A program made the translations under genes and the position numbers. A stretch of DNA of 64,000 nucleotides from an uncultured SAR116 cluster alpha proteobacterium (GTDB lineage: Bacteria; Pseudomonadota; Alphaproteobacteria; Puniceispirillales; Marisalimonadaceae): positions 62,001-126,000 of the forward strand of contig CACJFI010000002.1 in assembly GCA_902592615.1 (NCBI GenBank), read 5' to 3'. This document shows positions 5,514 to 7,800 of this stretch, piece by piece. Each line of letters begins with the position of its first letter. Position 1 is the first letter of the stretch. The notes under the pieces were generated by a model. That model did no database searches and was not told the DNA's origin. It worked only from the letters and a program-made list of their open reading frames with translations.

Positions 5514-6305
5514 GTGGATAACGCTCCACCTTTTTTGTCGCTTTCAATTAGATTTGGCATCGTTACCTGCTTGTTTTTTTTGTTTTTTATTTGTTTTTCA
5601 AAAGATAAATATATTTCTTTCACTGCTTTTAAAAATGCATCTATTAGTGGGTTATTATTTCACGGCTTATATTTAGGCGGGGTTTTTTTTGCTTTATCTA
5701 AAGGTATATCAGCTACGCTTATTGCATTAATAGTCTCATTACAACCTATTTTAACATCTATTTTAGCAAAAATTTATTTGAAAGAAACTCTAACTAAAAT
5801 TCAGTGGCTAGGAATCCTTTTAGGATTTAGTGGTGCAACTATTGTCATAATTTCTAATATAATTGAGGGTCTGACCCCAGTTGCATTTTTTGCTGGAATA
5901 GTTGGCCTGGTTTCTTCTTCACTGGGTATTATTTGGCAAAAAAAAATAGGGTCTGATTTATCTTTGTCTGGAAATAATTTTTTACAAGCATTGATTGCCT
6001 CAATCTTTCATCTTCTATTAGCGCTTTGCTTTGAAGATTTTTCTATAAATTATTCAAATAATTTTATTTTAGCTATGTCATGGCAAATATTGGCTGTATC
6101 ACTTGGTGCATTTTTAATTTTAATGTGGTTACTTGCGAATAATAAAGCTAATGAAACATCTACTTTGTTTTTTTTAATTCCTCCTGTTTCTGCTTTACTT
6201 GCTTTTTTAATATTAGAAGAAACGTTTACTTATTTTCACTTCTTTGGCTTGTTACTTTCTTGTCTAGGAGTATTTATGGTTTCAAAAATTCAGATTAAAA
6301 TTTAA
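5514..6305 (+). CDS. EamA/DMT-family permease (5' end uncertain)
   Basis: Inner-membrane protein of the drug/metabolite transporter superfamily, with two repeated EamA halves of about five helices each. GTG at 5514 is the first canonical start, giving 263 aa, but no ribosome site precedes it. The open frame continues upstream to 5394 and encodes what looks like the missing first helix (VIPIIFVILWSS, from 5454). The true protein is probably about 286 aa and begins at a non-standard codon such as ATT at 5445, 8 bases after AAGAAAG. Substrate cannot be predicted. Confidence 0.82.
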   Translation: MDNAPPFLSLSIRFGIVTCLFFLFFICFSKDKYISFTAFKNASISGLLFHGLYLGGVFFALSKGISATLIALIVSLQPILTSILAKIYLKETLTKIQWLGILLGFSGATIVIISNIIEGLTPVAFFAGIVGLVSSSLGIIWQKKIGSDLSLSGNNFLQALIASIFHLLLALCFEDFSINYSNNFILAMSWQILAVSLGAFLILMWLLANNKANETSTLFFLIPPVSALLAFLILEETFTYFHFFGLLLSCLGVFMVSKIQIKI

Positions 6306-6361
6306 ATACTTTATACTATTGTTTTTATTTTAAAACATTGTTAGTTTAATTATATCAAAGT

Positions 6362-6524
6362 CTTTTTGTGTGAGAGCGTTATTTGTAACCGCCGAAGGAG
6401 CAACCGCCCCGGAAACTCTCAGGCAACCGAAACACAAAAAGTTGATAATCTGGAGAGTGATGATTTTATCATCCACCGAAGGGGTAAGCCAATTTTGGTC
6501 AATCTTTCAGGTTCCGTGACAGAT
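6362..6524 (+). promoter_or_regulatory. Tandem glycine riboswitch
   Basis: Two glycine aptamers in series, 44 bases before the dehydrogenase start codon. Aptamer 1 has a perfect 10-bp P1 (6362-6371 with 6432-6441), an inner GAGAG/CTCTC stem (6372-6376 with 6416-6420) and the conserved core GCCGAAGGAGCAA at 6391-6403. Aptamer 2 has a short P1 (ATCTG 6448-6452 with CAGAT 6520-6524), core ACCGAAGGGG and a CTTTCAGG element near 6504. Tandem architecture with a short linker is the known cooperative glycine-sensing form. Confident from motif and pairing alone. Confidence 0.95.
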
Positions 6525-6560
6525 GGGGTAGTATTTAATTTACAAAAACTTTGTCACGGA
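6513..6560 (+). promoter_or_regulatory. Expression platform: hairpin masking the dadA ribosome site
   Basis: Positions 6513-6523 pair with 6550-6560 over 11 bp with one G-U. The 3' arm takes in CACGGA, and the GGAG ribosome site at 6558-6561 lies 6 bases before the ATG at 6568. The 5' arm overlaps the 3' strand of aptamer 2 P1 (6520-6524), so the two structures exclude each other. Glycine binding should hold P1 closed and free the ribosome site. I infer a translational ON switch. Confidence 0.75.
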
Positions 6561-6567
6561 GTTTATT

Positions 6568-7800
6568 ATGAAAAATATAGCAATTATAGGAGCAGGTATT
6601 ACTGGAGTAACAACTGCTTACCAACTTTTGGAAAGAGGTTATACTGTATCTGTTTTTGATAAAAACCGTTATGCGGCTATGGAAACAAGTTTTGCAAATG
6701 GTGGCCAATTATCTGCTTGTAATGCTGAAGTTTGGAATAGTTGGTCGACGATAGGCAAAGGTGTGCAGTGGATGTTAAAAAAAGATGCACCATTGCTATT
6801 CAGTCCTAAGTTCAACTTTCATAAAGTTAGCTGGATAATAGACTTTATAAGTAATATTCCAAATCACAAAAAAAATACGATTTTAACTGCCAAAATGGCC
6901 ATAAATAGTAGAGATGAATTCAAAAGAATTTTAAAAAAGGAAAATATTGAACTTGATCTTGAAGAGAAGGGTATTATGCATCTATGTGAGTGTGATAGCG
7001 CATTAGAACATGGTAGAGAGGTTAATAAATGGCTTTTAGAAGCCGGATTGGATAGAAGAGAAATTTCTTTAGATGAGATGTTATCAATTGAACCAACTTT
7101 AAATCTTAAGAATTTTATTGGTGGGTTTTATACAAAAAGTGACATGTCTGGAGACATTCATAAATTTACAAAATTACTTGCTAAAGCTTGTGAAAAAAAA
7201 GGTGTAAAATTCTTTTATGAAACAGAAATTATTAAAGTCAATCATGATAACAAACAACCAATACTTACCTTTAATCAATCAAATGAAATTCATAAACAAA
7301 ATTATGACGGGATTGTAGTTTGTGCTGGTGTTAATAGTAAATTTATAGCAAACAACTTAGGTGACAAAATAAATATATATCCTGTAAAGGGGTATTCTAT
7401 AACAATATTACTTGACGATAAGGAGAGCATCAAAAATGCTCCTTATGTATCTTTGCTAGATGATAAAGCTAAAATTGTTTCGAGTAGATTAGGAAAGCAT
7501 AGATTTAGAGTTGCCGGTACTGCTGAATTTAATGGTTATAATAAAGACATAAGAGCTGATAGAATTAATCCTCTTATTAAATGGTGTAACAACCTTTTTC
7601 CTAAAGTATCTACTGAACACTCTATACCATGGGCTGGCTTAAGACCTATGACACCAAACATGGTACCAAAAGTTGGAAGTGGAAAGTTACCTGGAATATT
7701 TTATAACACTGGCCATGGACACCTTGGATGGACACTTAGCGCATTTACATCTCAACAAGTTTCAGACCATATAATGAGAAAGGATAATGTTCTAAACTAA
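6568..7800 (+). CDS. D-amino-acid dehydrogenase-like flavoprotein (DadA family)
   Basis: FAD-dependent DAO-fold oxidoreductase of 410 aa. The N-terminal dinucleotide motif (IAIIGAGITGVTTAYQL) is followed by METSFANGGQLSACNAE, the DadA family hallmark, and the C-terminus has the FAD-binding stretch GHGHLGWTLS. DadA oxidises D-amino acids to 2-oxo acids and ammonia, passing electrons to the membrane quinone pool. Control by a glycine riboswitch suggests that the substrate is glycine or a close relative, or that the reaction feeds glycine removal; this is inference. It converges on gyrB with a 2-base gap. Confidence 0.88.
   Translation: MKNIAIIGAGITGVTTAYQLLERGYTVSVFDKNRYAAMETSFANGGQLSACNAEVWNSWSTIGKGVQWMLKKDAPLLFSPKFNFHKVSWIIDFISNIPNHKKNTILTAKMAINSRDEFKRILKKENIELDLEEKGIMHLCECDSALEHGREVNKWLLEAGLDRREISLDEMLSIEPTLNLKNFIGGFYTKSDMSGDIHKFTKLLAKACEKKGVKFFYETEIIKVNHDNKQPILTFNQSNEIHKQNYDGIVVCAGVNSKFIANNLGDKINIYPVKGYSITILLDDKESIKNAPYVSLLDDKAKIVSSRLGKHRFRVAGTAEFNGYNKDIRADRINPLIKWCNNLFPKVSTEHSIPWAGLRPMTPNMVPKVGSGKLPGIFYNTGHGHLGWTLSAFTSQQVSDHIMRKDNVLN

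Follow-up and report, generated by a model that had tools for sequence, protein, structure and literature searches.

A conserved tandem glycine riboswitch precedes a DadA-like flavoenzyme gene in SAR116 bacteria and may link glycine to glyoxylate metabolism

Introduction

What does a cell regulate when it places a glycine sensor in front of a gene whose product is named after D-amino acids? This question is raised by the leader of a DadA-like dehydrogenase gene in a 64,000-nucleotide stretch of DNA from an uncultured SAR116 cluster alphaproteobacterium (hereafter, the window). Glycine riboswitches are known to control gcv operons and transporter genes, and malate synthase is a further target in SAR11 (PMC2211319, PMC3766115, PMC5069720); PMC3766115 counts twelve glycine-metabolism genes. 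Among open full texts, we found no paper naming the pairing of a glycine riboswitch with such a gene, although supplementary regulon tables may already list it.

Results

A tandem glycine riboswitch lies upstream of the dadA-like gene

The earlier note had described a tandem glycine riboswitch at this locus, and an Rfam covariance search confirmed it by placing both aptamers above the RF00504 gathering threshold of 32 bits (Table 1). Together, the tandem and its P0 helix occupy window positions 6354-6532; the element therefore begins at approximately 6354, with the P0 helix, and not at 6362 as had been given, while the remaining structural claims stood. In a permissive scan, RF03166 (glycine-GGAnGA) ranked as the top clan member, but its 67.1 bits fall below its threshold of 110, and RF00504 was preferred. 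Within the genome of the window (84.6% complete, 1.72 Mb), this is the sole glycine riboswitch found.

Table 1 Features of the riboswitch locus (window coordinates)
Feature	Position	Strand	Basis and remarks
EamA-type transporter gene	5514-6305		Leader lies between it and the gene at 6568-7800
P0 / kink-turn helix, leader joined to inter-aptamer linker	6354-6356 with 6444-6446	+	
Glycine aptamer 1	6359-6444	+	RF00504, 61.4 bits; P1 6362-6371 with 6432-6441
Glycine aptamer 2	6440-6532	+	RF00504, 56.8 bits
Aptamer-2 P1, 5' strand AUCUG	6448-6452	+	Sequence; invariant in 49 leaders
Aptamer-2 P1, 3' strand CAGAU	6520-6524	+	Sequence; invariant in 49 leaders; 6520-6523 common to masking hairpin
Masking hairpin, 5' (anti-SD) arm	6513-6523 (to 6509 with G-U pairs)	+	
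Masking hairpin, 3' arm	6550-6560 (to 6564 with G-U pairs)	+	
Shine-Dalgarno GGAG	6558-6561	+	Sequence; 6 nt 5' of start codon at 6568
DadA-like FAD dehydrogenase, 410 aa	6568-7800	+	NF009074/PRK12409; PF01266 (DAO), 214 bits; probable glycine dehydrogenase/oxidase

We aligned 48 SAR116 leaders, comprising the window's own and those of 47 SAR116 relatives. P0 cells are paired in 99.3% of cases, and the P0 pair 6354-6446 changes from A-U to G-C on both sides in 13 of the 48. Covariation is also seen in aptamer-1 P1, at pairs 6364-6439 and 6368-6435. Aptamer-2 P1 is identical in 49 of 49 aligned leaders, and this invariance means that covariation speaks neither for nor against it. The two adjacent aptamers share one expression platform, a single hairpin on the ribosome site.

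The masking helix is conserved and excludes aptamer-2 P1

The 11-bp hairpin that had been proposed to cover the GGAG was read directly as 11 contiguous pairs (6513-6523 with 6550-6560) and is kept across the SAR116 leaders; when G-U pairs are counted, the helix extends to 15 pairs (6509-6523 with 6550-6564). Shuffling of the leader produced a ribosome-site helix of at least 15 pairs in 1 of 300 shuffles and of at least 11 pairs in 18 of 300, so that an 11-bp helix alone is just mildly unusual. At the sequence level, the masking helix is convincing through its conservation: 92.6% of its cells pair across the 48 leaders, against 40-47% in slid controls in which one arm was moved by 1-3 columns. 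Its sole compensatory pair is 6516-6557, where G-C is replaced by A-U in 11 sequences. Five SAR116 leaders (L085, L087, L089, L097 and L104) carry a weakened masking helix with 5-9 of the 11 pairs, and the expression platform may therefore differ in these. Since bases 6520-6523 are common to the masking hairpin and the 3' strand of aptamer-2 P1 (6448-6452 with 6520-6524), the two helices are mutually exclusive, in agreement with the overlap described earlier.

Folding models favour an ON switch

Unconstrained folding of the leader yielded a nearly complete masking hairpin and no aptamer-2 P1. In the P1-closed model, in which aptamer-2 P1 was forced and J3-1 kept unpaired, the predicted cost of opening the ribosome site fell from a mean of 6.1 to 2.4 kcal/mol, with a decrease in 46 of the 48 leaders; the window's own values were 6.8 and 3.7 kcal/mol. 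The opening cost was used in addition to the unpaired probability of the ribosome site because the latter is not a clean test; it increased by more than 0.2 upon P1 closure in just 18 of 48 leaders. In the window, the site stays largely paired in the model when P1 is forced (unpaired probability 0.12 to 0.02). With P1 closed, the site is predicted to be freed just partly, because a weak second hairpin remains available to occlude it (6546-6553 with 6557-6564; 8 bp, -3.4 kcal/mol). By inspection, this second hairpin is not kept in several relatives, for example L061, L074 and L077. On secondary-structure energies the masked state is favoured by approximately 11 kcal/mol, so that switching has to come from kinetics or from tertiary binding. 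In these models, the folding energetics support an ON switch, short of proof.

No terminator-like site was found in the leader region, which points to translational control, and transcription termination was ruled out as the mode of control. A sigma-70 promoter match at 6289-6317 was not clearly above chance, with 3 matches in the region against 1.1 expected, and was set aside. As judged from its sequence and modelled folds, the RNA is an ordinary translational glycine riboswitch, presumably of the ON type, and is in itself textbook.

The downstream gene encodes a PRK12409 flavoenzyme

The gene under the riboswitch had been called a DadA-like dehydrogenase, and its 410-aa product belongs to NF009074/PRK12409, matching over its full length (residues 1-405) with 631.4 bits against a curated cut-off of 494. 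The NCBIfam name of this equivalog is 'D-amino acid dehydrogenase'. The second-best family is DadA (PRK00711), at 314.5 bits under a cut-off of 383, and the match to ThiO glycine oxidase (TIGR02352) reaches 134.1 bits under a cut-off of 250.8. An AlphaFold model of the enzyme (mean pLDDT 83.8) found its best structural matches in glycine oxidases and a sarcosine oxidase, and glycine oxidases also came first in a sequence search of solved structures; identity to glycine oxidases is approximately 20%. As no solved DadA structure was among the matches listed, this resemblance may just reflect what has been solved, and it narrows the enzyme's substrate weakly. The residue R359, which lies in a WAGLRP motif and aligns with the WAGLRP arginine of ThiO, is invariant in 24 relatives.

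The riboswitch accompanies PRK12409 genes across three classes

Of 58 SAR116-family genomes, 53 carry the tandem riboswitch in front of dadA, one copy being truncated where its contig ends. The other five coincide with the genomes in which dadA was likewise not found, as expected from incomplete assemblies. Among more distant relatives, two glycine aptamer cores lie 5' of the PRK12409 gene in 32/32 non-SAR116 loci, and all 20 loci tested passed the Rfam cut-off. These 32 are the non-SAR116 part of 80 relatives fetched, and are the query's closest relatives and not a random draw; they span alpha-, beta- and gammaproteobacteria and include Phyllobacterium, Ancylobacter, Bosea, Comamonas, Octadecabacter, Neomegalonema and an Oceanospirillales bacterium. 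PRK12409 itself is rare, being carried by 4 of 241 genomes in a class-level sample that includes the window's own, and the riboswitch lies upstream in all 4 carriers. The pairing is not peculiar to the window's genome.

A protein tree united the SAR116-family enzymes in a single, well-supported group (100/100), next to a group from Rhodobacterales, Rhizobiales and betaproteobacteria; the enzymes of sister SAR116 families fall outside both. This arrangement may reflect either transfer or differential loss. Separately, the PRK12409 matches of three genomes of genus g12 in a sister family (G098, G104 and G105) each contain one in-frame stop; these genes may be pseudogenes, or the matches may continue beyond the real stop codon. 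In Comamonas loci, nhaA-I motif RNAs (RF03057) were also observed approximately 1.4-2.9 kb downstream of dadA (L107:7094-7157, L109:5559-5622 and L127:5581-5644).

The SAR116 family lacks glycine cleavage genes and keeps malate synthase G

Both gcvP and gcvH were absent from 58/58 SAR116-family genomes, with one chance match each (17.6 and 20 bits, respectively); each of the two models recovered its gene in 10 of 14 control genomes. Isocitrate lyase was absent from all 58 as well, and malate synthase G was present in 42 of the 58. The gene absences rest on draft genomes, of which just six are at least 90% complete; all six carry malate synthase G. This combination of losses with malate synthase G kept is new here. 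The only GcvT-like protein of the window's genome (L137, G000:C5:69513-70457) scored 129 bits, below the GcvT cut-off, and was rejected as GcvT because it is closest to the DMSP demethylase DmdA (386 bits, slightly under the cut-off of 410).

In the sister families of the order, gcvP was found in 45 of 78 genomes (matches above 100 bits), PRK12409 in 20 and both in 5 (Fisher p = 0.0012, a value that ignores relatedness and is only indicative). Sister families that keep gcvP have the riboswitch 5' of gcvT in the four loci read; where a lineage lacks gcvP, the gene behind the riboswitch is PRK12409. This pattern of gene presence and absence favours a route from glycine through glyoxylate to malate as the replacement of glycine cleavage.

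Discussion

Collectively, our analysis makes it probable that the tandem riboswitch turns on translation of the PRK12409 flavoenzyme, that the enzyme oxidises glycine, and that a glyoxylate route replaces glycine cleavage. In the absence of glycine, the ribosome site would be sequestered by J3-1 together with the 3' strand of aptamer-2 P1 that follows it, and initiation would be prevented. Upon glycine binding, which we infer together with the direction of switching from the RNA, P1 would close and remove 6520-6524 from the masking hairpin, freeing the ribosome site for translation. The enzyme's most likely substrate would be glycine, or a D-amino acid resembling it, which it would oxidise to glyoxylate and ammonia with a reduced quinone; malate synthase G would then condense glyoxylate with acetyl-CoA, and in the SAR116 family this oxidation would stand in for the lost glycine cleavage system. 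Oxidation to glyoxylate and then malate is the simplest reading because a glycine sensor sits on a flavoenzyme gene, glycine cleavage is missing and malate synthase occurs without isocitrate lyase. The suggestion of a glycine-catabolic step in the earlier note gains support from the pairing in three classes, the loss of gcvP and gcvH and the same malate synthase G pattern, from which the substrate is inferred.

The main competitor, unlikely in our judgement, keeps the riboswitch as described and takes the enzyme for a genuine D-amino-acid dehydrogenase acting on D-alanine or D-serine, with glycine serving as a cell-wall or amino-acid-scavenging signal and not as the substrate. It accords with the NCBIfam equivalog name and with PRK00711 DadA as the second-best family, although the DadA score stays under that family's cut-off. 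The weaker and more distant homologues of sister families (235-272 bits with the PRK12409 model) have no adjoining riboswitch where positions are listed, as in G124, with the gene at 124908 and the riboswitch at 2118221, and it is the family with the riboswitch-dadA pair that has lost glycine cleavage; both observations argue against this competitor.

An OFF-type switch, in which glycine binding would lead the second hairpin to mask the ribosome site, is considerably less probable. The largely paired site in the window with P1 forced accords with such a switch, but that hairpin is of modest stability and is not kept in the relatives named above, the opening cost falls with P1 closed in nearly all leaders, and a glycine-consuming enzyme is expected to be induced by glycine. 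We give hardly any weight to the idea that the riboswitch is a degenerate remnant left by a vanished gcv operon and no longer regulates: the family has indeed lost its gcv genes and sister families have the riboswitch at gcvT, yet compensatory changes accompany the conservation of the two aptamers, P0 and the masking helix, and the identical gene pairing is found in other orders.

Beyond the ON-type reading at this locus, a broader proposal, which we put forward tentatively and at somewhat less than even odds, is that PRK12409 proteins are mis-named glycine dehydrogenases under glycine riboswitches in alpha-, beta- and gammaproteobacteria, and that the SAR116 family, having dropped glycine cleavage, uses glyoxylate and malate synthase G to burn its glycine, with this single riboswitch in control. 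For an enzyme family named by similarity alone, a ligand-specific riboswitch here offers a clue to the substrate, and it suggests a route for glycine in a lineage that is abundant in the ocean and lacks glycine cleavage. If true, this would bear on the source of one-carbon units and on glycine handling in SAR116.

Comparison with known systems

The RF00504 tandem riboswitch with a kink-turn P0 occurs at gcvT in many Proteobacteria. The leader described here shares with it the two aptamers, their cores and P1-P3 stems, the P0 between linker and leader, and an aptamer-2 P1 that competes with the expression platform; it differs in its DadA-like flavoenzyme target and in that its J3-1/P1 strand forms the masking hairpin directly over the ribosome site. 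With respect to the enzyme, ThiO (TIGR02352; PDB 1ng3, 1ryi and 4ysh) is likewise a DAO-fold FAD enzyme and supplies the closest solved structures, whereas the sub-cut-off score, the low identity and a locus in which no thiamin gene context was seen set the two apart. DadA (PRK00711) belongs to the same superfamily, but the protein studied here is a member of PRK12409. Finally, the SAR11 riboswitches at glcB and gcvT (PMC2211319, PMC5069720) also belong to marine alphaproteobacteria and likewise link glycine sensing to glyoxylate and malate synthase; in the SAR116 genome, by contrast, gcv genes are missing, no glycine riboswitch accompanies malate synthase, and the sensor sits on the presumed glycine-oxidising step.
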